39,080 bases of DNA from NCBI GenBank assembly GCA_002410755.1, contig DHOL01000048.1, positions 11,225 through 50,304 of the forward strand, written 5' to 3'. Below the pieces are notes generated by a model, which did not search any database, had not been told where the DNA came from, and worked only from the letters and a program-made list of their open reading frames with translations. Position numbers and translations under genes: made by a program. Of this stretch, positions 18,853 to 31,246 are shown piece by piece. The DNA comes from Ruminococcaceae bacterium UBA5391. Its GTDB lineage: Bacteria; Bacillota; Clostridia; Oscillospirales; Acutalibacteraceae. The first letter of the stretch is position 1. The number at the start of each line of letters is the position of its first letter.

Positions 18853-19460
18853 CTATTTTGCAGCAATACTGCAAAAGGGGATCAGATTTCTCGCTGTGCT
18901 GCTTTGCGAGGGCTTTCCCGACTGGACGGCAGTCATCAGCGGCGCTGTGCTTTTAGCTGGCGTGGATGGCGACTGTGCAGTTCCCGCTGCTTTTCCGGAT
19001 GGTTGCGGGGAAGCGGCCTGTGTTGGGGCAGTTTGCTTTGGAGTGGCCTTCTTGGCCGGCATTTTGTCGAAGGCAGGGTTAAAAGCGTAGAAATTGCGGT
19101 CATCGAGGCTGTCTGTCACAATGCGCAGCCCTTCACCGAAACGCTGATAATGGACGACTTCACGCTCACGCAGGAAGCGGATTGCATTAAGCACGTCGGG
19201 ATCGTCAGTCATGCGCAGAATATTGTCATAAGTGCTGCGGGCTTTCTGTTCTGCTGCAAGGTCTTCATGAATATCGGTAATGGGGTCGCCCGAAACCTGA
19301 AGAGCTTGTGCACTGAAGGCGGAACCGTCTGCGTTGCAGGGGTAAACGCCGTTGCCATGGTTGACAAAATACGCGCTAAACCCGCCTTCGCGGATTTGCT
19401 TTTCCGTCAGGTTCCGTGTGAGCTGATGGACAATGGTGGCCACCATTTCAAGGTGTGCAA
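18853..19460 (-). CDS. cotJC: Spore coat protein CotJC, third (3') segment
   Basis: This encodes residues 66-267 of a CotJC/manganese-catalase-family protein and has no proper start of its own. It begins at LAHLEMVATIVHQLTRNL, directly after the 14-bp attachment core. It supplies ligands H68, E136 (in HEDLAAEQKAR) and H169 (in EREVVHYQRF). The E136-H169 spacing of 33 equals that of Lactobacillus plantarum manganese catalase (E148-H181). Residues 198-267 are a low-complexity Ala/Pro/Ser/Thr/Lys tail that CotJC of Bacillus lacks. No frameshift or stop disrupts it. The codon at its 5' end (CTT) takes its first base from the core, so joining to segment 2 is exactly in frame. An internal ATG at 19446 lacks a ribosome site and is unlikely to be used. 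Confidence 0.93.
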
Positions 19461-19474
19461 GTTCTTCTGTACCA
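19461..19474. repeat. Attachment core of element A, left copy
   Basis: The sequence is GTTCTTCTGTACCA on the plus strand, that is TGGTACAGAAGAAC on the coding strand. It is identical to 22340-22353. In CotJC it encodes Gly-Thr-Glu-Glu, the conserved metal-ligand stretch. It lies 8 bp from the recombinase stop codon. Confidence 0.88.
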
Positions 19475-19482
19475 TAGCATTG

Positions 19483-21066
19483 TCAGTGATCTGTGCTGCT
19501 TTTGGGGAGTTTTGGATACAGAATCAGTTCAAAGTCATCTGGCTGCCCGTGCCAGCGTCCATTTGTTTTCTTTGTGTAAATCACTTTTTCTACAACAGAT
19601 TTCAGCAGCGCATTTTTTTCTGCGGGGGATTTTGCCTCTGTGTATTGTTCCAAAACCTGTCCGACCTTTGGAATCATGGGATTCTGGTTCTTTAGCCCGT
19701 CCTGCCTGACCTTGTCTTCTAACTCTAAAATATTGCCCTGTACGTCTTCAATTTTCTGGCTGACAGCCTGAATACGCTTGCGGAAAACTTCTGCCGTGTA
19801 GATACCCCTTTCGAGCAGACCGTAAATGCTGTTTTTCTGCCTTTGAAGGTTGAAAAGTTCTCCCTGTGCAAGCCGGAGGGACTGTTGTAAACTGGCTGTT
19901 ACGGATGCAGCATGGGATTCCCCATGGAACGAAAGCTTATAATTGCCAAGCCACTCATGGAGCGACTTCAGGATGCAGGTTTCCACACATTCGAGCCGGG
20001 AGCTAATATTATTGCAGGAAGCGGCAGGGCACATCAGAATATCCGAGCCGTTCCGGTCCGCACAGGGCCTGCGAATCATTTTCCTGCCGCAGATGCCGCA
20101 TACAACAAGGCCGGAAAGTGGATTTTTCATTTCGCGCCCCTCCGGGGGCGGGTGCGGTCCGTGCTCCTTAAGGCGTTCCTGAACAGTGCCCCATGTGGCA
20201 GAGTCAATCAGCGGTTCCTGTAAGCCGTCGGCTACAACCCAGTCTGCCGATTTTGTCCGCGGCCTTTTTTTAACAATGCGGCCATCCGCCATCGCTTTCC
20301 GGAGTGGGCGGGAATTCCATCTGATTTTCCCGATATAAACCGGATTCCGAAGCATTTGCCGTATACTTGCGTTTCCCCATGCGTCCCCTTCATAAGGCGG
20401 TATCTTTAAATCATTTAAGCGGCGCGCAATCTTTGAAATTCCCATACGGTGTACGGTGCCTCCGGACTGTTCCCCATAGGCGTACCAGCCAAAAATTGCT
20501 TTGACAACCGGTGACTGCACCGGATTTGGGACAAGCGTAAAACCCTTGTCATGCTCCAGCTTTTTGCGTAGGTATCCATATGGCGGTTTGCTTCCTACAT
20601 ATTTTCCTTCTTTTACGGAAGCAATGCGCCCCCGCTGAAGCCGGCGGTTTATTGTCTTATATTCACGCCGGCTCATAAAGAGGCCGAATTCAAAATATTC
20701 TTCATCATATTCATTATCAGGATCGTAAATTTTTGCAGGAGTAATGATTTTTGTCTCACTCAACTGAAAGGCTTGCGCAACAATGCCCTGGTCGATGGTG
20801 TCGCCACGTGCAAGACGTTCCACTTCCATGACAAGTACGCCTTCCCATGCGCCCTTCTCTACGTCGGTGAGGAGTTGTTGCATGACAGGCCGTGCTGCAA
20901 TCGTTTCACCGGAGACAATTTCACGGTAAATGTAGGTGATATCCAGCTTCATCTTTTTTCCGAGCTCCAAAAGGGCATGTTCATGCCGGGCAAGCGTCTC
21001 ACCTTCACCGCGCGCTTCCGCTTCTGCATCGGCGCGGGATTTGCGTAGGTACAGACAATAGGACAT
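19483..21066 (-). CDS. Large serine recombinase of element A
   Basis: This is a 527-aa site-specific recombinase. The N-terminal resolvase domain (residues 1-150) has catalytic S10 in LYLRKSRAD and the arginine region VERLARGD. The Recombinase domain follows, with the signature MLRNPVYIGKIRWNSRPLR. A zinc ribbon (VVCGICGRKM plus two later Cys) and a C-terminal coiled coil (~420-490) complete the family architecture. ATG 21066 was chosen because AAGGGAG lies 9 bases upstream; an in-frame ATG at 21138 lacks a site. It is on the same strand as cotJ, and its stop is 8 bp from the attachment core. It differs clearly from the element B recombinase, so the two elements probably have separate specificities. 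Confidence 0.95.
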   Translation of the reverse strand: MSYCLYLRKSRADAEAEARGEGETLARHEHALLELGKKMKLDITYIYREIVSGETIAARPVMQQLLTDVEKGAWEGVLVMEVERLARGDTIDQGIVAQAFQLSETKIITPAKIYDPDNEYDEEYFEFGLFMSRREYKTINRRLQRGRIASVKEGKYVGSKPPYGYLRKKLEHDKGFTLVPNPVQSPVVKAIFGWYAYGEQSGGTVHRMGISKIARRLNDLKIPPYEGDAWGNASIRQMLRNPVYIGKIRWNSRPLRKAMADGRIVKKRPRTKSADWVVADGLQEPLIDSATWGTVQERLKEHGPHPPPEGREMKNPLSGLVVCGICGRKMIRRPCADRNGSDILMCPAASCNNISSRLECVETCILKSLHEWLGNYKLSFHGESHAASVTASLQQSLRLAQGELFNLQRQKNSIYGLLERGIYTAEVFRKRIQAVSQKIEDVQGNILELEDKVRQDGLKNQNPMIPKVGQVLEQYTEAKSPAEKNALLKSVVEKVIYTKKTNGRWHGQPDDFELILYPKLPKSSTDH

Positions 21067-21266
21067 GTAGCTCATCTCCCTTGTGTGGTTTGCCGGGTAT
21101 CGGAAAATGCCGATATTCCACCTGCCCGGCAATTCCATACCATCTTTTATTCAGTTTTATGCCGAAATAGTACGCTGCTGAAAAATGGCCTGCAATTAAG
21201 CTGCGGGCGGAGAGCAATGAATAGGACGATCCGTCATTTGAGTAAAGATAGGATGAGGTGGTAGAG

Positions 21267-21488
21267 GTGCTTGCCAAAATTCCGGTTGCAGGAAACATCG
21301 TGGGGGACTGCTGCATTGGGGCTGCCCATATTTTAATCAGCGATGCGGCTTATATAGGGAAAAGCAGGAAAGAATTTCAAAATGTGCTGGATGAAGCAGC
21401 TCAGGCGTCTTGGAATATCCTCGTGCACAGACGGGAACAGGGGGACTTAAAAAATAAGAGTCTGAACTTTTCAGAGCAGGTGGGATAG
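21267..21488 (+). CDS. Small protein divergent from recombinase A
   Basis: This is a 73-residue protein of unknown family (starts VLAKIPVAGNIVGDCCIGAA, with a DAAYIGKS segment and a helical C-terminus EFQNVLDEAAQASWNIL). GAGGTGG (21254-21260) precedes GTG 21267; GTG 21258 is an alternative start. It is soluble, has no HTH that I can see, and is divergent from the recombinase with a 200-bp gap. Element B has a similarly placed small plus-strand gene. By analogy with SprB, the directionality factor of SPbeta, a role in excision control is possible but not shown by sequence. Confidence 0.55.
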   Translation: MLAKIPVAGNIVGDCCIGAAHILISDAAYIGKSRKEFQNVLDEAAQASWNILVHRREQGDLKNKSLNFSEQVG

Positions 21489-21849
21489 AGGGTTCTTCTC
21501 TGTGGGGGGAGAGAACAAAAATGCCTTACAGTGCCGAATAAAAAAAGTGCCGCCCATTTCTGGGTGGCTGAAAAGGAACATCAATTTTTCACAAAACTAG
21601 TTTAACAGGAAATTATGGAAACTTCAAATCCAATTTGTTCCATAAATATTGGATAATATTGTTACATTGATCTTTGATTTATGAAAAGACATATGCTAAA
21701 AGCTGGGAATATTTTTACAGAGAGTAATATTACTTATGTTTTCAACATTTTCAACTGGCTTTTCAACATCTTGCTGTTGACAATTTGCAATAAACTATAT
21801 CAGGGATTCTCCGCAGGAATGCCTTGTATCAAAAAGCGAGTAGATCCCT
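21489..21849. other. AT-rich non-coding part of element A
   Basis: No supported gene. A GCCGCCCA/TGGGTGGC hairpin (21549-21568) has a T run on the minus strand, and TCCAAT/ATTGGA forms a wide inverted repeat near 21630-21655. The 147-codon plus-strand reading frame from 21681 has no ribosome site and overlaps the well-signalled Cys-rich gene on the other strand. Confidence 0.4.
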
Positions 21850-21858
21850 CTACTCGCT
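21831..21858 (-). terminator. Terminator of the Cys-rich gene
   Basis: On the minus strand AGCGAGTAGA pairs perfectly with TCTACTCGCT around GGGA and is followed by TTTTT. The stop codon of the Cys-rich gene lies in the stem. Confidence 0.85.
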
Positions 21859-22059
21859 CTCTTGGTTTGGCTGGCCCAGACAATCTTTTCCTTCGCCTTT
21901 TTTCCCTGAGAAGTTGTCACACAGGCAGCACTTGGAATTGCCGCAAGCAGAATTTTCGCATGTCTTTGACGAAGAGCCGTCTGGGAAATATGAAAATTGA
22001 ATCGGCACATATCTCTTTACAAATGTACAGTATTTCCCAATCCGCTTTTCATTGCTCAT
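21850..22059 (-). CDS. Cys-rich small protein of element A
   Basis: This is a 69-residue protein (begins MSNEKRIGKYCTFVKRYVPI) with seven cysteines. Most lie in the block CENSACGNSKCCLCDNF, suggesting a metal-binding or disulfide-stabilised fold. No family is recognised. It has the best ribosome site in the element, AAGGAGG 7 bases before the ATG. It also has an extended -10 (TGATATAAT; TATAAT at 22086-22081, minus) and a perfect terminator, so it is an independent, well-expressed unit. It is transcribed towards the recombinase but terminates before it. It could be cargo or a recombination accessory factor. Confidence 0.7.
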   Translation of the reverse strand: MSNEKRIGKYCTFVKRYVPIQFSYFPDGSSSKTCENSACGNSKCCLCDNFSGKKGEGKDCLGQPNQESE

Positions 22060-22339
22060 GCTTTAACCTCCTTTTTATTTATTATATCACAATCCTGTTA
22101 AAGTATCTAACTTTGATATTTTAGTAAAGCCTGTTATAAATGTACCACTTTTCTGGGAATGCGGCTAAAAAACGTCGGAGCCTCCTGCCGCAAGTGCCTC
22201 CAGTCGGAAAAGTGCTGAACAGTATACCTTTCAGAACAATAGCTGCATTGGTGTTTATAAGGTCTGTCCCATGCGGCCTTAAAATGCTGCCGTATCCTTA
22301 ATCGCAGGCACTGTTTTCACTGACCATATTAAGGCTCAG
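22060..22339. other. Promoter region and right end of element A
   Basis: This holds the minus-strand -10 of the Cys-rich gene (22081-22086). The remaining ~200 bp up to the attachment core shows no supported gene and presumably contains recombinase arm sites flanking the core. Confidence 0.4.
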
Positions 22340-22353
22340 GTTCTTCTGTACCA
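22340..22353. repeat. Attachment core of element A, right copy
   Basis: GTTCTTCTGTACCA on the plus strand, identical over 14 bp to 19461-19474. On the cotJC side it continues the reading frame (DIGTEE). On the element side the frame runs into a stop after three codons (PEP then TAA). Confidence 0.88.
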
Positions 22354-22439
22354 ATATCGGTCAGAATAGCTTTCATTTCAGGATAAGGCATACTGTAACG
22401 CTGGCTGAGATAACGCAGGGAAGCGCCAATCTCGCCGTC
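22340..22439 (-). CDS. cotJC: Spore coat protein CotJC, second (middle) segment
   Basis: One hundred bases encode residues 33-65 plus one base of codon 66. The translation runs from DGEIGASLRYLSQRYSM to ILTDIGTEE. This is the highly conserved centre of the CotJC/manganese-catalase family and carries ligands E35 and E65. It is stranded between element A (low-coordinate side) and element B (high-coordinate side) and has no start, ribosome site or stop of its own. It is in frame with segment 1 through GGT-GGG-CCA and with segment 3 through the 14-bp core. The absence of any mutation in such a short isolated exon argues for recent insertion or continuing selection. Confidence 0.93.
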
Positions 22440-22448
22440 TGGCCCACC
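22440..22448. repeat. Attachment core of element B, left copy
   Basis: TGGCCCACC on the plus strand (GGTGGGCCA on the coding strand), encoding Gly-Gly-Pro of the conserved YGGPDGE motif. It is identical to 30679-30687. The surrounding 14 bases match at 12 positions. Confidence 0.8.
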
Positions 22449-22467
22449 ATATGGCAATTTGTTATCA

Positions 22468-23901
22468 TTACAGATAGTAAAAGATTTCCACCTGATTTTT
22501 TTCCCGGTCAAAGACGATTTTATCAATAAATGACCGGAGGACAATATTTTTTTGCTCGGCGCTGATTTTTGGGCTGCGCAGCAGCGCAACCATCTCAACC
22601 TGCTGCGCAGGGAAATTCCCTGTGGCCGCAGGCTGTGGCTGTGCGTTTTGCAAAGACTTTTCGCTCTTTAGCTTTTTAATCTGGCTTAGTATTTTCTGTT
22701 TGTTTGCCTGGTATTCCTTCAGGGTGTCGGCGCCCTCTGCATAGGCTTCTTTTACACGGGACAGCTTTTGTTGTTCCCGGGAAATCTGCTTTTTTATGAT
22801 TTCAGAATAGCAGTCTGCTTTGGGGAACTGTTTCTGAGTAAAGATAAAATTATTTGACTTCAGATTTGCTTCAATGGAGGCTAAGACCATTCCTTCAAGC
22901 CTTCTAATCAGGATTCCGTGTGACTCGCTGCACTCCCCATGGGCATACCCAGTGCACTGCATGGAATTTTCTCCGCTTTTGCAGAGGGTGCTTCCGCAGC
23001 TGCTGCACTTTACAAGGCCTTGCAGCATAATTGTGGCCGGCTTTTTACGACCGGAACTCTTCCCGTACATCAATTTATTTTTGGCCAGCATCTCCTGGGC
23101 TTTTTTCCAAGTTTCATCGTCCAGGAGATGTTTGTGACCGCTGTCGGTAACAATAAGATTTGGATCGTCGAAGTTCCTGCACGTTTTGTGCTTCGGATTC
23201 CAGCGGATTTTACCAATATAGACTGGATTTCTCAGGACATATTCAACGGTCCGGCTTTCCCAGCAGCCGCCGCGCTTTGTTTTGATTCCCATGGCGTTCA
23301 GTTGTGCGGCAATGGCACGGCAGCCCATGCCGCTGATGTAGCTGTCAAAAATCATTTTTACAAATGGAGCGGTTTCAGGATCAGCATAGTATTTTTTATC
23401 CTGAATCAAATAACCAAAAGCCGGTGCTGTGACCGGCTCCCCACGGATAACTTTTTCGCTCATGCCACGCCGGACTTCCTCAGCCAGGTTGATGCTGTAA
23501 TATTCGTCCATGGCCTCTATCATGGCTTCCACAAGAATGGACATTTTGCTGTCCCCAACCGGCTCTGTGACAGATACGACTTCAATTCCGCACTGCTTGC
23601 GCAGCATGGATTTATAAACAATGCTGTCCTGCCGGTTCCGCGCGAAGCGGGAAAATTTCCAGACAATAATTACGTCAAAAGGCCTTGGCTTCCTTTCAGC
23701 AGTGCCAATCATCCGCATAAACTCCGGACGCTTCTTTGCTGCTTTTCCACTGATGCCTTCATCCTCCCGAAAAATAAATTCCTTCGGTAATATCATGTCG
23801 TTCTTTTCAGCATATTCCTGAATTTTTTCCAGTTGGCTGTCCGGGCTGTACTCCAACTGGTCGTTGGTTGAGACACGAATATAAGCGGCTGCAGTTTTCA
23901 T
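22468..23901 (-). CDS. Large serine recombinase of element B
   Basis: This is a 477-aa recombinase. The resolvase domain has catalytic S11 in AAAYIRVSTND and the arginine region WKFSRFARNRQDS. The Recombinase domain contains VLRNPVYIGKIRWNPKHK. The zinc ribbon has KCSSCGSTL with a later Cys pair, and a coiled coil spans ~365-420. The stop codon lies 19 bp from attachment core B. No good ribosome site precedes ATG 23901; instead the start overlaps the stop of a 34-codon ORF (ATGA), suggesting translational coupling. It shares only family motifs with recombinase A. Confidence 0.95.
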   Translation of the reverse strand: MKTAAAYIRVSTNDQLEYSPDSQLEKIQEYAEKNDMILPKEFIFREDEGISGKAAKKRPEFMRMIGTAERKPRPFDVIIVWKFSRFARNRQDSIVYKSMLRKQCGIEVVSVTEPVGDSKMSILVEAMIEAMDEYYSINLAEEVRRGMSEKVIRGEPVTAPAFGYLIQDKKYYADPETAPFVKMIFDSYISGMGCRAIAAQLNAMGIKTKRGGCWESRTVEYVLRNPVYIGKIRWNPKHKTCRNFDDPNLIVTDSGHKHLLDDETWKKAQEMLAKNKLMYGKSSGRKKPATIMLQGLVKCSSCGSTLCKSGENSMQCTGYAHGECSESHGILIRRLEGMVLASIEANLKSNNFIFTQKQFPKADCYSEIIKKQISREQQKLSRVKEAYAEGADTLKEYQANKQKILSQIKKLKSEKSLQNAQPQPAATGNFPAQQVEMVALLRSPKISAEQKNIVLRSFIDKIVFDREKNQVEIFYYL

Positions 23902-24002
23902 GGCTTTAGCTCACACTCCCCGCTTATTCCATATATTTCCGCTTTTATCGGCAGTTCGTTCAGAGTTATGATTCGGGGCGGTTTACTTATGCGCCTTAGC
24001 AT
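23898..24002 (-). CDS. 34-codon ORF coupled to recombinase B
   Basis: This short ORF (begins MLRRISKPPRIITLNELPIK) ends in a TGA that overlaps the ATG of recombinase B. The recombinase has no clear ribosome site, so translation of this ORF may be needed to start it. Its own ribosome site is weak. The sequence looks protein-like (LNELPIKAEIYGISGE) rather than random. It could be a leader peptide or a small recombination factor. Function unknown. Confidence 0.4.
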   Translation of the reverse strand: MLRRISKPPRIITLNELPIKAEIYGISGECELKP

Positions 24003-24086
24003 ACTTTAAATTGCAGCAGAAAAGCGGTTCAGGGACATCATAGGACAATTCATATCAGGAATAGACTTAAAACTGAGGTGAGCCAT

Positions 24087-24323
24087 ATGGCAGCAAAGGA
24101 ACCGTTTACATTTACTGCGGTCAGCTACATAACGGATCAGTCTGGAAGCGGAAAAACGGTCTGCCGGGAAAAAATTATCTTTGAGCAGATTCTTTCCCCG
24201 GAGGATAACTGTCAATTCAAACCGGTCAGGCGCACCGTTTATATGTCAGAAGAGGAACAGACCAAGTGCGATAAGAAAATGATGAAGCATGTGGAGGCAA
24301 ATTTAGCGCAGAAACGTTTGTAA
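24087..24323 (+). CDS. Small protein divergent from recombinase B
   Basis: This is a 78-residue soluble protein (begins MAAKEPFTFTAVSYITDQSG) with a basic, helical C-terminus containing TVYMSEEEQTKCDKKMMKH. GAGGTGA lies 5 bases before ATG 24087; a GTG at 24078 is an alternative. No family was recognised. Its position, divergent from and directly upstream of the recombinase, mirrors the 73-aa gene of element A, though the two sequences are not similar. Candidate recombination directionality or regulatory factor by position only. Confidence 0.55.
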   Translation: MAAKEPFTFTAVSYITDQSGSGKTVCREKIIFEQILSPEDNCQFKPVRRTVYMSEEEQTKCDKKMMKHVEANLAQKRL

Positions 24324-24335
24324 CGGAGGAAAAAC

Positions 24336-24446
24336 GTGCTGTTCCGGGAACAGTTTGGAACTCAGTCTGCCAATCAGAACGTGAGCCAATCAATATGCGC
24401 GGAAGGCTTTTGTATGTACAAGGCTATGTATATCGCTGAAGTTTAA
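24336..24446 (+). CDS. 36-codon mini-ORF after the small element B gene
   Basis: This tiny ORF (GTG start, begins MLFREQFGTQSANQNVSQSI, ends YIAEV) starts 12 bp after the previous stop. It has a perfect GGAGG site 6 bases upstream, which is hard to explain unless it is translated. Function unknown; it may be part of the same small operon as 24087. Confidence 0.42.
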   Translation: MLFREQFGTQSANQNVSQSICAEGFCMYKAMYIAEV

Positions 24447-24633
24447 GGAAATTTTAGTTTTCAGGCTTGCTATTCTTTCCGGGAGGGAACCGTGCATTAT
24501 ATTTATAAATTTGTCAATTAAGGATGTTTCGACATTTATAGCATAAAAGTATATATTTTCAAAAATAAGTAGAATGATTTTAAACTTTATATCTATAAAT
24601 CGTCACAATATAATAAAAGCAGAGGGAATAAGA
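24447..24633. other. AT-rich upstream region of the PTS operon
   Basis: No gene seen. The region contains AT-rich promoter-like sequence: TTGTCA near 24510, and TTCGAC near 24527 followed by TATATA after about 16 bp. This is the likely start of the PTS operon transcript and the place to expect PRD-regulator binding. A clear cre site was not found. Confidence 0.35.
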
Positions 24634-26790
24634 ATGAAGCTCAGACAAAAACTCCTGATGGATAAAATCATGCAGTCCGGCACAGTAAGCTTTGATGACC
24701 TGTCAAGGCTTTTCTTTGTTGGCGAAAAAACAATCCGGAATGATATTAAACAAATTAATGAATATGTCAGCAGCCGGGAAGGCAGGCCATGTTTTTCCAT
24801 CTTCAGACGTACAGTTTCATTCTGTGGCGATTCGGGAATGAAGCAGGCCCTTGATGGGTGCAGCGTCAGCGACGATTACTATCTTTATCATTTATCTGGC
24901 GAGGAGCGCTTCTTTATCATTATTGCAAAACTCATTTGCAGCAGCGACTATATGACGATTGAGGAGTTTTCCAACCAGCTTTGTGTCAGCCGCAGCACGG
25001 TGAATTCGGACATGCTCCATATTAAGGAATGGTGCAGGAAAAACAGCATTCGCATTGAGTTGAAAAAAAGCCGGGGAATCCGGCTGGATGAGGGGGAAGA
25101 GAAAAAGCGGAAAATTCTGTCCAAGCTCATCAGCGACCATGTTCACGTCGGCGGACTCGGCAACACTTTTTATGAGGCCGTGCTAAGCCAGAAAATCTTC
25201 CATGGAATCAATGAATCTGCCATCAAAGAGATTATATTATCCGCAGAAGAAAAATATAAATTCATTTTTTCCGATGAAGCCTTTGAAGAGCTGGTTGTGC
25301 AGATTGCATTTTCCATCCTACAGGATAAGACAAGCCATCCGGCTTTCAAGGATGACAGGCCGGATATCCGCCCCGACCGGATGGAATATCAAGTTATCCG
25401 GTATATCGTTGACCGCACGAATTTCTGCTTTCATACGCAAATATCGGAGAATGTGATTCCCTGTTTGGCAGAGCTGTCCCTAAAAAGAGCCTCACAGCCA
25501 GAAAAGAGCCCCATGCAGGATGAAGAGGCAGAACTTCCTTATATCCAGATTATAGCGGAACAGCTTATCCTCAATGTAGGAAAAAACATTCATTTTGATT
25601 TTTCAACAAACGAGGTTCTGTACAGCCGCCTAGTTGTTCATTTGTGTTCCGCTATTTTTTCAATGAGAAACGAAATCCGCAGGGACGATCCTTTCAGCAG
25701 GTCCCTGATTGAAGAAAATAAATCCCTATCCTGTGCCATACGTGCAAGCTGTAACTGCCTCAGCCAGTTTTTGGGCAGGGAAGTTTCCAATGAGGGAATT
25801 TGCCATTTGCTGATTTATTTTGCAAGTGCTGTTGAGAATTCCTCCAAAACATTTCCAGCGAGGATCCCCGTTGTTGCGGTGCTCTGCAATACAGGGCAGG
25901 GGACGGCGCAGTTGGTTGTTGAGGAACTGAAACGGTATTTCAACTTTGACATTAAATCCGTTATGGCAGTCCATCAGCTTGAGTATTGTCAAAAAAAGCA
26001 AAAATTCGACTTTGTAATTTCAACCATTCCGCTTAAAACAGTGCTGCCGTGTGTGGTGGTCAGCCCCATTATCCGGAGGGATGACATTGAGAACATAACA
26101 GAAATGATGATAAAGCTTGGGTTCCTAAATCGAATTCCTGCCTCGTCAGGGCTGGCGAGAAATGGATGCCAGGAGCCGGAAGACAGTCTGCAGGAACAGG
26201 TCAGGGCACTGTTGGGCAATAACTGTAGCAACGATTACATTTTTGCAGAGAAGTTGCAGAAAATATTAAAGCAGTACCAGGAACATCAGAAAAACTGTAA
26301 GGAAGCAAAGGAGATTGAGCAGCCAATGCTGAGTGAGTTGTTAAAGCGAGAATATATTTCCCTCGACGCTGAGGCGAAGGACTGGAAGGAGGCGATGAGG
26401 ATTGGCGGAGAAATTCTGCGTAGCCACGGCGTCATATCGGAAGCGTATATTGAGGCGTCTATTCAGAACGTGATGGATTCAGGCCCCTATATTGTTCTCA
26501 CAAAGGGAGTTGCAATCCCGCATGCAGGTAAGAAGTATGGGGTATACCATACGGCATTTTCCTTTGTAAGGCTGAAAACACCAGTTTACTTCGGAAATAA
26601 AGAAAATGATCCGGTGAAATATATTTTTACTTTGGCAACGGTTGACTCTTCCTCCCACCTTACTGCGTTGAGGGACCTTGTTGCTCTGTTTGACTATCCG
26701 GAATTCTTCGCTGCCCTTGATACGGCCAAGACACCGGATAACATTATAGATTTTATTCAAAAATTTGAAAAACAAAAGGAGCATTCATGA
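24634..26790 (+). CDS. PRD-containing PTS transcriptional activator (BglG/MtlR-type)
   Basis: This is a 718-aa multidomain regulator. It has two N-terminal helix-turn-helix segments (residues ~1-55, TVSFDDLSRLFFVGEKTIRN; and ~100-160, TIEEFSNQLCVSRSTVNSD). Two PRD domains follow (~180-400), then an EIIB-like domain with Cys418 in VLCNTGQGT. The C-terminal EIIA domain (~565-718) has active-site His630 in AIPHAGKK. Such proteins sense sugar supply through phosphorylation by HPr and their cognate PTS, and activate the PTS operon. ATG 24634 has GAGGG 8 bases before it. The EIIA domain may also serve as the missing IIA of the transporter, since no separate IIA gene is present. Confidence 0.92.
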   Translation: MKLRQKLLMDKIMQSGTVSFDDLSRLFFVGEKTIRNDIKQINEYVSSREGRPCFSIFRRTVSFCGDSGMKQALDGCSVSDDYYLYHLSGEERFFIIIAKLICSSDYMTIEEFSNQLCVSRSTVNSDMLHIKEWCRKNSIRIELKKSRGIRLDEGEEKKRKILSKLISDHVHVGGLGNTFYEAVLSQKIFHGINESAIKEIILSAEEKYKFIFSDEAFEELVVQIAFSILQDKTSHPAFKDDRPDIRPDRMEYQVIRYIVDRTNFCFHTQISENVIPCLAELSLKRASQPEKSPMQDEEAELPYIQIIAEQLILNVGKNIHFDFSTNEVLYSRLVVHLCSAIFSMRNEIRRDDPFSRSLIEENKSLSCAIRASCNCLSQFLGREVSNEGICHLLIYFASAVENSSKTFPARIPVVAVLCNTGQGTAQLVVEELKRYFNFDIKSVMAVHQLEYCQKKQKFDFVISTIPLKTVLPCVVVSPIIRRDDIENITEMMIKLGFLNRIPASSGLARNGCQEPEDSLQEQVRALLGNNCSNDYIFAEKLQKILKQYQEHQKNCKEAKEIEQPMLSELLKREYISLDAEAKDWKEAMRIGGEILRSHGVISEAYIEASIQNVMDSGPYIVLTKGVAIPHAGKKYGVYHTAFSFVRLKTPVYFGNKENDPVKYIFTLATVDSSSHLTALRDLVALFDYPEFFAALDTAKTPDNIIDFIQKFEKQKEHS

Positions 26791-27071
26791 TGAAAAAAGG
26801 ATTGGTTGTTTGTAGGACTGGTATGGGAAGTTCCATGATGCTGTGCATCAAATTAAACAGCGTGATTGAAAAGAATCATTTTCCCCTGGAGCTGGAACAC
26901 GATGTTTTAAGTGGCGTTGGCATGCACAATCCGGATGTTGTTATCGTGATGAATGACTTGGTGGATGAATTTAAAGACAAAGATGTCTATGTGATTGGGA
27001 TACGTGACATCATGGATACAAAATATATGGAAGAGGAGTTGAAAAAATTTTTCAAGCTGAAGGGTGAATAA
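26790..27071 (+). CDS. PTS IIB component (ascorbate/lactose-type, UlaB-like)
   Basis: This is a 93-aa cytosolic phosphocarrier. Cys8 in VVCRTGMGSSMM is the phosphorylation site. The fold pattern (DVLSGVGMHNPDVVIVMNDL) fits the PTS_IIB (SgaB/UlaB) family. The start ATG 26790 overlaps the regulator's TGA by one base and has AAGGAG 8 bases before it; ATG 26787 is the alternative. It transfers phosphate from an IIA domain to the sugar bound by the IIC component encoded next. Confidence 0.92.
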   Translation: MKKGLVVCRTGMGSSMMLCIKLNSVIEKNHFPLELEHDVLSGVGMHNPDVVIVMNDLVDEFKDKDVYVIGIRDIMDTKYMEEELKKFFKLKGE

Positions 27072-27097
27072 AGAAAATGATATAAGGAGGGAAAGTT

Positions 27098-28384
27098 ATG
27101 TCAGTTATCATGTCAATCCTGCATTTCATTGTTTTCAGCCTCCTGTCACAGGCCTCAATCCTCGTAGGCCTGATGGCCATGATCGGGCTGATTTTGCAGA
27201 AGAAAAAAGCGGTGCAGGTTATCACGGGGACGGTTAAAACAATTGTAGGGTTCCTGATTTTCGGAATTGGCTCCAGTGCGGCTCAAAGTGCCCTGACGTC
27301 TTTCCAGACGCTTTTTACAAAAGGGTTCCACGTAGAAGGCGTTCTGCCGCTTGCAGAGGCAGTTACAGGCCAGGCACAGACAAAATTCCCCATGGTGATT
27401 GCACTGGTCATGGTGTGTGGCTTTGCGCTGAACCTTTTGGTTGCAAGAATTACCCGGTTTAAATGTATTTTCCTCACCGGCCAACACAACCTGTTCCTCG
27501 CGGCCATGCTGACAATCCTGTTTAAGGCCATGGGGATGAGTGATGTTGTCACAGTCGTTGCCGGTTCCATTATCCTCGGCTTTGCTGCTGCTATCTTCCC
27601 GTCTATCGCGCAGCCCTATATGAGGAAGATTACAGGGCACGACGACATCGCGATTGGCCATTACTGCACCCTTGCCTATGCACTTTCCGGCTGGCTCGGC
27701 AGTAAAGTCGGTAAACCGGAAGAGAGCACGGAAAAGCTGAAACTCCCAGGGTGGCTTTCCATCTTCAAGGACTATGTCGTTTCCGTTACACTCTCAATCG
27801 GCGTGTTCTATTATATTGCCGCTATTGCAGCAGGGCAGGCCAATGTTGAGAAGCTGTCAGGCGGTATCCATTGGCTGGTATATCCTTTCCTTCAAGCTTT
27901 GGCTTTTGCAGGCGGGCTGTATGTCATCATCACAGGCGTTCGGATGTTCCTTTCCGAAATTGTGCCTGCATTCGTTGGCATTTCCGAGAAATTCATCCCG
28001 AATTCCAAGCCTGCACTTGACTGCCCGGTTGTGTTCCCCTATGCTCCAACTGCAACAGTGCTTGGGTTTATCTGCTCCTATCTCGCAGGTGTAGCATGTA
28101 TCCCATTCTTTGCGGCTGTTGGCCTCCCGGTAATCATTCCGGTAGCAATTCCGTATTTCTTCATCGGCGGCACGGCAGCAGTATTTGGCAATGCTACAGG
28201 CGGCTGGAAAGGCGCAGTGCTGAGCAGTGTGGTAACCGGTATTCTGATTGCCGTTGGTCCGGCACTGATGTATCCGGTTATGCAGGCGGTTGGCCTTTCC
28301 GGAACGGCTTTCCCGGAAACAGACTTCAACGCTCTTGGGCTTGTGATTTATAACCTTGGCAAACTGTTTGGTCTGGCACACTGA
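27098..28384 (+). CDS. PTS IIC component (ascorbate-type, UlaA/SgaT family)
   Basis: This is a 428-aa membrane transporter with about ten hydrophobic segments. The family-typical segments are TVKTIVGFLIFGIGSS, CIFLTGQHNLFLAA, DDIAIGHYCTLAYALSGW and a C-terminal GGTAAVFGNATGGWKGA. The UlaA family imports L-ascorbate, but many clostridial homologues have other, unknown pentose-like substrates. TAAGGAGGG precedes the ATG. The neighbouring transketolase and absence of ulaD/E/F-type genes argue against simple ascorbate use. Confidence 0.9.
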   Translation: MSVIMSILHFIVFSLLSQASILVGLMAMIGLILQKKKAVQVITGTVKTIVGFLIFGIGSSAAQSALTSFQTLFTKGFHVEGVLPLAEAVTGQAQTKFPMVIALVMVCGFALNLLVARITRFKCIFLTGQHNLFLAAMLTILFKAMGMSDVVTVVAGSIILGFAAAIFPSIAQPYMRKITGHDDIAIGHYCTLAYALSGWLGSKVGKPEESTEKLKLPGWLSIFKDYVVSVTLSIGVFYYIAAIAAGQANVEKLSGGIHWLVYPFLQALAFAGGLYVIITGVRMFLSEIVPAFVGISEKFIPNSKPALDCPVVFPYAPTATVLGFICSYLAGVACIPFFAAVGLPVIIPVAIPYFFIGGTAAVFGNATGGWKGAVLSSVVTGILIAVGPALMYPVMQAVGLSGTAFPETDFNALGLVIYNLGKLFGLAH

Positions 28385-28397
28385 ATACTAAGACACT

Positions 28398-28435
28398 GAC
28401 AAGTAGCCGAAAGGGCCAACTCTCGGCTGCTTGTC
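28398..28435 (+). terminator. Intra-operon hairpin after IIC
   Basis: GACAAGTAGCCGA pairs with TCGGCTGCTTGTC (13 bp, one G-U) with no following T run. More likely an mRNA stabiliser or processing site than a full terminator; the transketolase genes continue downstream. Confidence 0.55.
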
Positions 28436-28456
28436 TCAATAAACTATGGAGGCAGT

Positions 28457-29284
28457 ATGACACTGGAAAAACAGTTGTCTATTCTGGCAATGGAAAACAG
28501 GGAGCGGATTATACGGATGATCTACTACGCAAAAGCCGGCCATCCGGGCGGTTCGCTTTCCATTATTGATATTCTTACGGCAATCTATGAGCTTGATGTT
28601 GACCTTGCCTCAAAAAAGCGGAGCAGAGTGATCTTGTCAAAAGGACATGCCGTCCCTGCACAGTATGCAGTTTTCAATGAAAAAGGTATTCTCAGTGATG
28701 AGGAAATGAAAACCTACCGCACTGTCAATTCCAGGCTTCAGGGGCATCCTTATCTTGTTGACATCCCTCAGTCAGATGCGACAACGGGGCTTTTGGGCCA
28801 GGGACTTTCCATTGCAGTCGGGGTTGCAGTCGCGAAAAAGCATGACGGGGAGAACAACCGCGTTTATGCCATTGTGGGAGACGGGGAAATGATGGAAGGC
28901 CAGATCTGGGAAGCAATTCTGGAAGCGCCGCAGTTCCGGCTGGACAACCTTGTCTTGATCGTTGACTATAATAAACTTTCCTCCAGCGGGCCGGTTAAGG
29001 ACGAAATGGATCTTGATCCGCTCGCAGAGAAATTAAAAGCCTTCCGCTGGGATGTTTTGGAAATAGACGGCCATAACATGGAGCAAATCGTAAAATGTAT
29101 CCGCCTTGCGCAAAAAGGTACGGGAAAACCAATCGCAATTATCGCAAATACCGTGAAAGGCAAGGGCGTCTCCTTTATGGAAAATAATCCGAAATGGCAC
29201 AGTTCTGCACTGACGGACGAAGAGTACCATACGGCCCTTGCGGATATCAGGCGTGGGAAGGAAGCGATTTGCCTTGGAAAATGA
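28457..29284 (+). CDS. Transketolase, N-terminal subunit
   Basis: This 275-aa subunit binds the thiamine diphosphate pyrophosphate group and Mg2+. The motif is VGDGEMMEGQIWEA...LDNLVLIVDYNKL. AGHPGGSLSIIDILTAIY and LSKGHAVPAQYAVF are typical transketolase segments. Split transketolases occur in archaea and many Firmicutes. It transfers two-carbon ketol units between sugar phosphates, feeding the imported sugar into the pentose phosphate pathway. GGAGG precedes the ATG. The stop overlaps the start of the C-terminal subunit. Confidence 0.93.
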   Translation: MTLEKQLSILAMENRERIIRMIYYAKAGHPGGSLSIIDILTAIYELDVDLASKKRSRVILSKGHAVPAQYAVFNEKGILSDEEMKTYRTVNSRLQGHPYLVDIPQSDATTGLLGQGLSIAVGVAVAKKHDGENNRVYAIVGDGEMMEGQIWEAILEAPQFRLDNLVLIVDYNKLSSSGPVKDEMDLDPLAEKLKAFRWDVLEIDGHNMEQIVKCIRLAQKGTGKPIAIIANTVKGKGVSFMENNPKWHSSALTDEEYHTALADIRRGKEAICLGK

Positions 29285-30209
29285 CCTTATCTGTCTGCGC
29301 GCACATGTAGGTGAAACCCTGTGCGAGTTCGGAAAAGATGACAGGCTGTTTGTACTGGATACCGATCTTGCGCAGTCGACAACATCAGCCAGATTCCGTG
29401 AAAAATATCCGGATCGGTTTATTGAAATGGGAATATCGGAGCAGAGCGCCATGTCGGTGGCAACCGGGCTGGCTATTGAAGGGAAAATTCCGTTTTTTGT
29501 GAGCTTTGCCATGTTTACAACTGGTACTCCGTGGACACAGCTGCGGCAGGCATGTTACTCCCGGCTAAACGTTAAGGTAATTGGTACCCACCCGGGCCTT
29601 GACGACGGACCGGACGGCGCAAGCCACCATGCCAATGAAGACCTTGCGCTGACAAGGGTTCTGCCAAATCTGACTGTGCTTACCCCGTCAAGCCTGTCTG
29701 AGCTGCACGACAGTATTAAGCTTGCCATTGAAACGGAAGGCCCGTTTTATATCCGAGTGGCGAGGGATACGCTCCCGGTTTTGAATGCCCCGGAGCAGCC
29801 GGTGAGGCTCGGCAAATTTATTGTAAATTATGATGACGGCAATGATATTGCCATTTTATATGAAGGCAGCGCATTAAAAGCAGCTTATGAAGGCTACTGT
29901 ATTTTGAAGCAGGAAGGGGTTCCCTGCAAGCTAATCAATATATCCTGCCTAAAGCCGATTGATAAAGAAGGGCTGTGTTCTCTTGCCGGGAACGTAAAAG
30001 GAATTGTCACGGTGGAAAACCATTCTGTGCTTGGGGGGCTTGGCGGCGCCGTCGCAGAAGTCCTGATGAATGCAGGGCGCACCGTTAAATTTGCTCAGGT
30101 CGGCGTGCAGGATGTTTTCACGGAGTCTGGAAAGATCAGCGACCTGAAAGAAAAATATGGCATTACAGGAGAGCATGTTGCAGAATGTGCACGGCGGCTG
30201 GTTCCCTGA
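29274..30209 (+). CDS. Transketolase, C-terminal subunit
   Basis: This 311-aa subunit contains the pyrimidine-binding domain with the activating Glu in RFIEMGISEQSAMSVATGLA. It also has the transketolase C domain (residues ~190-310; VENHSVLGGLGGAVAEVL). The start is proposed at TTG 29274 (ENDLICLRAHVGETL), with GGAAGGAAG nearby and an 11-bp overlap with the previous gene. GTG 29253 or TTG 29238 would add residues not typical of the family. It forms the active enzyme with the preceding product. Confidence 0.9.
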   Translation: MENDLICLRAHVGETLCEFGKDDRLFVLDTDLAQSTTSARFREKYPDRFIEMGISEQSAMSVATGLAIEGKIPFFVSFAMFTTGTPWTQLRQACYSRLNVKVIGTHPGLDDGPDGASHHANEDLALTRVLPNLTVLTPSSLSELHDSIKLAIETEGPFYIRVARDTLPVLNAPEQPVRLGKFIVNYDDGNDIAILYEGSALKAAYEGYCILKQEGVPCKLINISCLKPIDKEGLCSLAGNVKGIVTVENHSVLGGLGGAVAEVLMNAGRTVKFAQVGVQDVFTESGKISDLKEKYGITGEHVAECARRLVP

Positions 30210-30294
30210 CAGCTTTGGCTGCCTTAATCCATTTGTTGGGAAACCCGTATCGGTGTATTGGCCTGTTATAAGCAGAGGAAGCGAGGTTCAATCA

Positions 30295-30552
30295 ATGCAG
30301 ACATTTCGATATGCAATTACCGATCCGGAAGGGATGCATGTCCGCCCGGCGGGCTTGCTGGCAAAATTTGCCCAAAGCTGCACTTCCAGGATTACCATGA
30401 TATATGGGGGAAAATCAGTCGACGTGAAACGCCTTTTTGCTATTATGAGTTTGTGTGTTAAGTCAAATGATGAAGTTACCTTTCAAGTAGAAGGAGAACA
30501 TGAGGCTCAGGAGTGTGAAAACCTGAGAGCCTTCTGCCAGAAAAATCTTTAA
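30295..30552 (+). CDS. HPr-like phosphocarrier lacking the regulatory serine
   Basis: This is an 85-aa HPr-family protein. His15 lies in GMHVRPAG, the site phosphorylated by enzyme I. In HPr of Firmicutes, Ser46 is phosphorylated by HPrK for CcpA-dependent repression; here the equivalent position is Arg46 (SVDVKRLFAIMSL). It could therefore carry phosphate for transport but should escape HPrK/CcpA control. That suggests a dedicated carrier for this operon. ATG 30295 is preceded by GAGG; the frame upstream lies inside the transketolase gene. It is the last gene of the operon, followed by a perfect terminator. Confidence 0.88.
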   Translation: MQTFRYAITDPEGMHVRPAGLLAKFAQSCTSRITMIYGGKSVDVKRLFAIMSLCVKSNDEVTFQVEGEHEAQECENLRAFCQKNL

Positions 30553-30589
30553 GGCAGGCGGAAGGCCGCGCTCATCCTTCTTCCATAGA

Positions 30590-30620
30590 AAGCCCATCAG
30601 AAAATTCTTCTGATGGGCTT
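30590..30620 (+). terminator. Terminator of the PTS operon
   Basis: AAGCCCATCAGAA pairs perfectly (13 bp) with TTCTGATGGGCTT around AATTC, followed by ATTTT. It shields the adjacent attachment site and cotJ from convergent transcription. Confidence 0.85.
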
Positions 30621-30678
30621 ATTTTGATGTACCCGCGCCTTTTTATCCCTTCTCCATCATTTATCACAGTTTGATATT

Positions 30679-30687
30679 TGGCCCACC
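30679..30687. repeat. Attachment core of element B, right copy
   Basis: TGGCCCACC, identical to 22440-22448. With flanks the plus strand reads TTTGGCCCACCGTA here and TCTGGCCCACCATA at the other end (12 of 14 identical). Beyond it the truncated cotJC frame reads NIKL and stops (TGA at 30666-30664). Confidence 0.8.
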
Positions 30688-30774
30688 GTACTGTGCGATA
30701 ATAATCTGTGCAAGGTGCGGATCGGTTATTTTAATTTTGACCGGATACTGAAGGCGCTTTTCATAGATCCACAT
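30679..30774 (-). CDS. cotJC: Spore coat protein CotJC, first (5') segment
   Basis: This segment is exactly 32 codons, MWIYEKRLQYPVKIK through AQYGGP, the characteristic CotJC N-terminus. It begins 17 bp after cotJB. AAGGAG and AGGAG sites lie in the 16 bases before ATG 30774. As the genome stands, reading continues four codons into element B and stops, giving a 36-residue fragment without any metal ligand. Joining codon 32 to codon 33 at 22439 restores the family sequence YGGPDGE. The gene is too short in isolation to be called by ordinary ORF criteria, which is why it is easily missed. Confidence 0.93.
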
Positions 30775-30791: not shown

Positions 30792-31034
30792 TCAAATATC
30801 CCAGGGCCACGGGTCTGAAATCCAGGCCCAACGGCTGGAGTCTCGCTGTGTGCTGTTCATTGGCCCATAAGACGCTTCATACTGCTTAACCAGTTCCTGC
30901 ATGTTTTTGTGAGCTTCTTCCAGCTTTGCGGCCGCGTTGCAGTCGCCAGGGTGGGAGTCAAGGTACAGGTGCAGATCAAGCATGGAAAATTGTGCAGCGG
31001 AAATTTTCCGCTGGAGGGATTCCTGCTCATTCAT
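30792..31034 (-). CDS. cotJB: Spore coat protein CotJB
   Basis: This is an 80-aa inner-coat protein made in the mother cell. Family features include LDLHLYLDSHPGD, a helical middle and the C-terminal tryptophan-rich DPWPWDI. It is needed with CotJC and CotJA for coat incorporation in Bacillus. Its ATG overlaps the cotJA stop (ATGA), with AGGCG upstream. The operon order cotJA-cotJB-cotJC is as in Bacillus subtilis, except that cotJC is interrupted after codon 32. Confidence 0.92.
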   Translation of the reverse strand: MNEQESLQRKISAAQFSMLDLHLYLDSHPGDCNAAAKLEEAHKNMQELVKQYEASYGPMNSTQRDSSRWAWISDPWPWDI

Positions 31035-31246
31035 TTCAAAACGCCTCCCCCAAGAAACGGCTTGTCAAGTTCCGGGAATATGGTGCCGCGCTCCAGCCCT
31101 TTTTCGGGCGGATAAAGATTTCCAAACTGCTGGAATGGGATATAAGCCATTGCCACAGGAGTACTCTGCGGGAATGGTGTTGGATTCGGCGTGCAGCCTT
31201 TGCCTGCTACGACGGTAGACGCTGCAGCGGCTGATGGATTACTCAT
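31031..31246 (-). CDS. cotJA: Spore coat-associated protein CotJA
   Basis: This is a 71-aa protein. The conserved core is VAMAYIPFQQFGNLYPPEKG followed by GTIFPELDKPFLGG, diagnostic of CotJA. An Ala/Ser/Pro-rich N-terminal extension of about 30 residues precedes it. GGAG lies 10 bases before the ATG. First gene of the operon; in Bacillus it is under sigma-E in the mother cell. Confidence 0.93.
   Translation of the reverse strand: MSNPSAAAASTVVAGKGCTPNPTPFPQSTPVAMAYIPFQQFGNLYPPEKGLERGTIFPELDKPFLGGGVLK

Follow-up and report, generated by a model that had tools for sequence, protein, structure and literature searches.

How might a bacterium make the spore-coat protein CotJC when its gene, cotJC, lies in three pieces separated by two elements, each with a large serine recombinase (LSR) of its own? 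The question is raised by a 39,080-nucleotide stretch of DNA from Ruminococcaceae bacterium UBA5391 (contig DHOL01000048.1, positions 11,225 to 50,304), hereafter the window, whose own numbering is used throughout. We propose, with a probability of roughly 0.8, that both elements, which sit at two fixed codons, are excised in the sporulating mother cell, restoring a reading frame of 267 residues. The same arrangement occurs at four codon sites across the order Oscillospirales, and every site has a recombinase clade, or clades, of its own.

Anatomy of the split gene

The pieces and the repeated cores at the element ends are as follows.

30679..30774, minus strand: cotJC piece 1, codons 1-32, 96 nt (tblastn and exact joining)
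22340..22439, minus strand: cotJC piece 2, 100 nt (tblastn and exact joining)
18853..19460, minus strand: cotJC piece 3 with the stop, 608 nt (PF05067 match and exact joining)
30679..30687, minus strand: core B, copy ending piece 1 (exact match, two in window)
22440..22448, minus strand: core B, copy preceding piece 2 (exact match, two in window)
22340..22353, minus strand: core A, copy ending piece 2 (exact match, two in window)
19461..19474, minus strand: core A, copy preceding piece 3 (exact match, two in window)

Exact joining gives 804 nt, or 268 codons, comprising 267 residues and a single, terminal stop, in agreement with the arithmetic of the first-pass annotation of this DNA. That annotation had also held that the joined protein follows its family across both joins and that each gap is one independent LSR element with direct-repeat cores. 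Both statements stand: an intact congeneric CotJC used as tblastn query matches all three pieces and runs through both joins, each element carries one LSR, and the cores lie only at the element ends. Core B (GGTGGGCCA, 9 nt) has just two copies in the window, at 22440 and 30679, and core A (TGGTACAGAAGAAC, 14 nt) likewise two, at 19461 and 22340; both pairs are in direct orientation. Without excision the window DNA would yield a cotJC product of 36 residues, and with element B alone removed one of 68 residues; because either element left in place truncates CotJC, both must go.

The window cotJC scores above the PF05067 cut-off, and the intact congener CotJC matches solved manganese catalases (1jku, E = 2.1e-17); by domain and catalase-type sequence, CotJC is predicted to belong to the manganese catalase family. 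A second intact cotJC, whose presence the first-pass annotation took as grounds for rejecting its reading, was not found in the source genome (88 contigs, 71.29% complete), because the only three PF05067 matches in a profile search of that assembly are the window pieces themselves.

The elements and the genes around them are listed next; related open reading frames (ORFs) at other loci are counted where they exist.

22440..30678: element B, 8239 bp, between pieces 1 and 2
22468..23901, minus strand: LSR B, 477 residues, 3' end toward piece 2 (PF00239 and PF07508)
24040..24046, plus strand: ATAGGAC box preceding the small ORF of element B
24078..24323, plus strand: candidate directionality factor of element B, 81 residues, divergent from LSR B (related ORFs at 9 loci)
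24574..30552, plus strand: cargo of element B, namely PRD/EIIA regulator, EIIB, EIIC, transketolase N and C parts and an HPr-like gene (Pfam)
19461..22339: element A, 2879 bp, between pieces 2 and 3
about 21066-19483, minus strand: LSR A, 527 residues from the start used, 3' end toward piece 3 (PF00239, PF07508 and PF13408)
21221..21227, plus strand: ATAGGAC box preceding the small ORF of element A
21258..21488, plus strand: candidate directionality factor of element A, 76 residues, divergent from LSR A (related ORFs at 5 loci)
21850..22059, minus strand: cysteine-rich ORF of 69 residues in element A
30792..31246, minus strand: two intact ORFs upstream of piece 1, presumably cotJA and cotJB

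In element B there is a sugar phosphotransferase operon, together with an HPr-like gene and a transketolase in two parts; element A has its recombinase and small ORFs. On the question of phage genes, Pfam assigned the main element B ORFs to sugar transport and transketolase, and those of element A were the LSR and small ORFs. The N and C parts of the transketolase have coding sequences of their own (28457-30209), beside the phosphotransferase operon and the HPr-like gene. The cysteine-rich ORF had no Pfam match and was discarded as a directionality factor because nothing matched it at the other genus loci tested. Relatives of cotJA and cotJB precede piece 1 at five other loci tested.

Four sites and their recombinases

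Uninterrupted relatives, which the first-pass annotation had suggested for comparison, do exist (G, L and C numbers are our handles for genomes, loci and contigs). Ten genomes of the genus were searched, the source included, and nine gave a CotJC match; the genus search found none in G008. The gene is uninterrupted in G005, G006 and G009 and split in G000, G001, G002, G004 and G007 (G004, G002 and G007 are Ruminococcaceae bacteria UBA5406, UBA1036 and UBA5295). The draft G003 has cotJC in two forms: a joined copy, on a contig that stops at residue 111, and piece 3 beside LSR A on another contig. Its joined and element-bearing forms are identical at 151 of 152 locally aligned nucleotides, with the single mismatch in the attachment (att) core and a further core difference just beyond the local alignment. 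These two forms fit excision inside a single population; a mixture of strains is another possible source.

Recurrence of the split layout through the order takes the case beyond what the first-pass annotation had observed. The order survey, with an intact CotJC as query, covered 147 genomes at least 90% complete (the source genome being added to the set) and found a match in 120. Counted by hand, with four genomes with a match left out, cotJC is broken in 48 of the 110 other genomes with a match and near full length in 62, a tally that takes in drafts and some breaks at contig ends; five survey genomes have only a more distant full-length catalase (33-35% identity). By best match, all 48 breaks were assigned to four places, at about codons 31 (7 breaks), 64 (23), 137 (10) and 176 (8). 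At the third of these the match in G169 continues through stops to 154, and at the fourth the matches end at 176-185. The fourth-site class is the least secure, because few LSRs lie among the fetched survey stretches; G204 holds a complete fourth-site element of about 2.8 kb.

The recombinases lead to the same gene. Using the best 80 of 125 LSR B relatives in genome contigs, we found a cotJC piece at 71 of the 80 loci. The genomes behind 50 of the 80 loci were searched for all cotJC pieces. Of these genomes, 19 carry at least two pieces on one contig; in one (G058) the pieces are inverted, and in the other 18 they are co-oriented and in order, separated by gaps of about 2 kb up to 57 kb. In Butyricicoccus sp. 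Marseille-Q5471 (G030) a single contig carries five ordered pieces on the same strand; each of the four downstream ones is preceded by an LSR, and an extra LSR stands at the left end of the second gap. Four pieces are present in Intestinibacillus massiliensis (G054), where the fetched stretches show LSRs at two of the three gaps, and in G089 (about ten contigs), and in G197, a single-contig genome of the window's family, an 8.6-kb element splits the first site. Because relatives carry cotJC cut at up to four fixed points, CotJC production likely depends on cutting and rejoining DNA. At one locus (L216, 4254-8370), piece 1, preceded by intact cotJA and cotJB, lies in the opposite orientation to pieces 2-3; it would therefore be rejoined by inversion and not by excision, and the arrangement is possibly a misassembly.

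With attL and attR aligned by codon, the GG of codon 31 is common to all 18 pairs at site B, GCAGCAGA to all 5 third-site pairs and the TT of codon 174 to all 4 fourth-site pairs. The 15 att pairs at site A (one further pair lacks a piece) have no dinucleotide in common, and a single crossover dinucleotide was not found there; this fits the presence of two LSR clades at that site. When exact cores were required, a stricter rule, in-frame rejoining to within one residue of the reference length was obtained for 30 of 42 pairs; of the other 12, six gave no join or lacked a piece and six joined off site. An LSR lies within 1.2 kb of 122 of 187 piece ends at a site and points its 3' end toward the junction in 115 of the 122 (67 beside the downstream piece on the same strand and 48 beside the upstream piece on the opposite strand), counts in which genomes fetched twice are counted twice. 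In a tree of 112 LSR rows, 103 of them different, built by a quick method and with several long branches flagged, the site labels need three changes, the minimum possible, against a mean of 31 when shuffled; sites B, three and four each form one group and site A two.

Some close relatives of LSR B face opposite cotJC pieces (L171 and L183, L126 and L123), as if the element sat either way round. Random orientation through a palindromic crossover, which might have accounted for the two orientations, is not supported at site B, where the shared dinucleotide is GG.

In an alignment with solved manganese catalases, the four sites coincide with, or are no more than six codons away from, the positions equivalent to E35, E66/H69, E148 and H181, which we take to be the ligand residues of 1jku. 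The LSRs have probably settled on highly conserved coding stretches beside metal ligands. Relatives of LSR B also occur on viral contigs, with a cotJC piece at 13 of 59 such loci; phages therefore probably share this attachment system. One contig from a viral collection (L276) has an LSR B relative, piece 2, a close, partial LSR A relative (86%) and both box-bearing small-ORF starts.

Other genes in these genomes are also split. In the source genome, a third LSR element interrupts a second, spore-type gene whose 3' piece the LSR directly abuts (L043, 1148-3382, contig C26; 5' piece at C31:8739-8864). The gene is split at the same codons in G004, where both pieces are co-oriented and 5.3 kb apart, and is intact in G001, G005, G006, G008 and G009; its breaks in G002 and G007 are contig ends and were not counted. 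It has no Pfam or NCBIfam match. One homologue is named a DUF3794 protein in one source, and a 76% homologue is labeled Acutalibacteraceae; DUF3794 is a spore-associated domain. A polysaccharide-deacetylase-like frame ends at an LSR in G001 and G003, with an apparent C-terminal part after an LSR in G004 (L082, L088, L092). A fourth LSR of the source genome (L044, 3484-5301, contig C47) lies near a gene that we take to be smpB-like.

Proposed excision, its timing and the competing explanations

Over codons 67-191, the ratio of nonsynonymous to synonymous substitution rates (dN/dS) is 0.05-0.10 in split pairs of the genus (5 of 15 with finite dS), 0.09 in wider pairs (3 of 10 with finite dS) and 0.09 in intact pairs (1 of 3 measurable). 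Piece 3 is kept in frame under purifying selection, though unexcised DNA gives 36 residues.

Signals that might time excision lie inside the elements. A small ORF divergent from the LSR is kept at 9 B-type loci and an unrelated one at 5 A-type loci; we propose both as candidate recombination directionality factors (RDFs). The motif ATA(A/G)GAC stands 39-48 nt upstream of all 13 candidate RDF starts tested (8 of type B, one same-species duplicate left out, and 5 of type A), where chance would place it in about 0.5% of 80-nt windows. The motif shared by the unrelated A and B small ORFs resembles a SpoIIID site, in that TAGGACAATC fits what we take to be the B. subtilis consensus, WWRRACARNY. Across all fetched DNA, duplicates included, CATAGGACAA occurs 34 times against 6.3 expected by chance. 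A stricter box pattern is found at 4 places in 6 genomes, 3 of them in these elements (the source's own B, and A and B of G004). A SpoIIID-family gene is present in 11 of 11 genomes, 6 of them above the curated cut-off; a split spoIIID in the source genome was rejected, the interruption being a run of N. Bare CATANNNT is commoner upstream of B LSRs (20 of 65) than in simple shuffles (11.9), and 1 of 200 shuffles reached as high a count.

For the timing we look to the C. difficile skin element, by analogy: the available text of PMC5025042 describes its RDF, CD1234 (72 residues), as depending on sigmaE and SpoIIID, confining excision to the mother cell. In the cotJC elements, recombination between attL and attR by LSR A and LSR B would excise each element, and each excision would need the small divergent ORF of its element as RDF. 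Mother-cell regulators (sigmaE with SpoIIID) could switch on both RDFs through the shared ATAGGAC box, and the forespore line would keep both elements.

Several observations weigh against excision in the mother cell, which we infer from genome sequences. Among the 48 broken survey genes, 20 were fetched, and an LSR was present in only 4 stretches (G204, G060, G108, G079), the remaining stretches being either short and cut off by a contig end or up to about 4-5 kb long with no LSR. The pieces of G004 lie on three long contigs flanked by ordinary genes, and in single-contig G150 two pieces on the same strand are separated by about 674 kb, with ordinary genes around them (C1:198617-198805 and C1:873272-873643); such far-apart copies are either dead or rejoined by rearranging the chromosome. 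The strict box pattern is not enriched genome-wide, since a reversed control hits 3 places against its 4, and three two-part promoter patterns for sigmaE/sigmaK were not enriched upstream of LSRs (65 B and 16 A regions). For most pairs synonymous divergence has reached saturation, and some of the piece 3 divergence may be older than the insertion. A protein search that scored only the 7996 candidates sharing most words gave, among the database hits listed, no near-identical joined protein, the best with a listed source being 86% identical; a 99% hit of 197 residues with no source was rejected as the joined protein, as it fits the window's own piece 3.

Taken at their strongest, some of these points would mean that the elements simply inactivated cotJC and that the pieces are remnants never rejoined. 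The genome-only nature of the evidence and the scattered pieces of G004 and G150 speak for such decay, as do incomplete additional copies of piece 3: in G007 a shortened one (L033) close to an LSR that contains stop codons, and in G003 L025. The first-pass annotation had said that decayed segments in relatives would contradict it, and these extra copies go that way, but the main copies show no such decay. The window frames are open through all pieces and join exactly in frame, the strict rule rejoins most pairs, dN/dS is low where measurable, the same four sites recur throughout an order, the LSRs are intact in the window and congeners, and each five-piece gene would need four separate losses. 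We consider decay improbable.

Less probable again is that cotJC is an ordinary integration hot spot for phages or islands, with excision on induction or transfer and no tie to sporulation. The viral-contig relatives of LSR B and the metabolic cargo of element B would suit such a hot spot, but elements of about 2-3 kb with little beyond an LSR and small ORFs (L144, L151 and the window's element A) would not, nor would a common box before unrelated small ORFs, the targeting of another spore-type gene, or selection on piece 3. An assembly artefact is hardly credible: the source genome is an 88-contig draft and some survey breaks fall at contig ends (e.g., G061, G189), but the pattern recurs with exact cores in unrelated drafts, in single-contig G197 and on long contigs of named isolates (L148, L181), and the last two refute it as a general explanation.

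Excision of both elements in the mother cell thus remains our preferred reading. A wider version, possible though doubtful, is that cotJC is a gene with the equivalent of introns at the DNA level: four fixed splice points, each with its own recombinase clade or clades, would let up to four elements be removed in the mother cell at every sporulation. In that version, one box before the RDFs would synchronize unrelated elements, other spore genes would join, and far-apart pieces such as those of G150 would be assembled by chromosome rearrangement.

Relation to known sporulation elements

Were excision confirmed, cotJC would be the most fragmented gene known to us that a bacterium rebuilds by DNA recombination, and the order would supply serine recombinases of several families, matched to their sites, along with candidate directionality factors. 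One could then test what draws such elements to spore genes and what sets the time of their removal. In many genomes of bacteria that may well form spores, annotation will report cotJC, and perhaps further spore genes, as absent or broken. The first-pass annotation knew of no description of two elements in one coat gene, and our literature search, which covered few subscription papers, likewise returned no paper on interruption of cotJC or on several elements in one spore gene; the accessible part of a survey of LSR targets (PMC10083194) holds no word starting with cotJ.

The known cases are close in kind. The accessible parts of PMC10747680 and PMC5595907 describe skin, SPbeta (in spsM), vfbin (spoVFB), gin (gerE) and yin (yabG) as serine-recombinase elements in sporulation genes, one per gene. 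Like such sporulation gene-intervening elements, those of cotJC sit in a sporulation gene, carry their own recombinase and have direct-repeat cores at which recombination would restore the frame. The likeness to skin in sigK (SpoIVCA in B. subtilis; CD1231, with the RDF CD1234, in C. difficile; PMC5025042, as far as its text was available) extends to in-frame restoration of a sporulation gene by a serine-recombinase element. In contrast, skin is one element in a sigma-factor gene, whereas cotJC encodes a coat enzyme and has two to four elements, four order-wide sites and unrelated recombinase clades. SPbeta, vfbin, gin and yin differ in that, in the available accounts, each is a single element in another gene, whereas cotJC carries several. 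The convergence of diverse LSRs on one conserved coding site resembles the LSR attachment sites in conserved genes described in the accessible part of PMC10083194, but cotJC, unlike the sites in that part, is a single gene with four sites and occurs as ordered sets of several pieces. By analogy, the arrangement is best read as skin-type excision that would occur in the mother cell, with several elements in one gene and a four-site target extending through the order.

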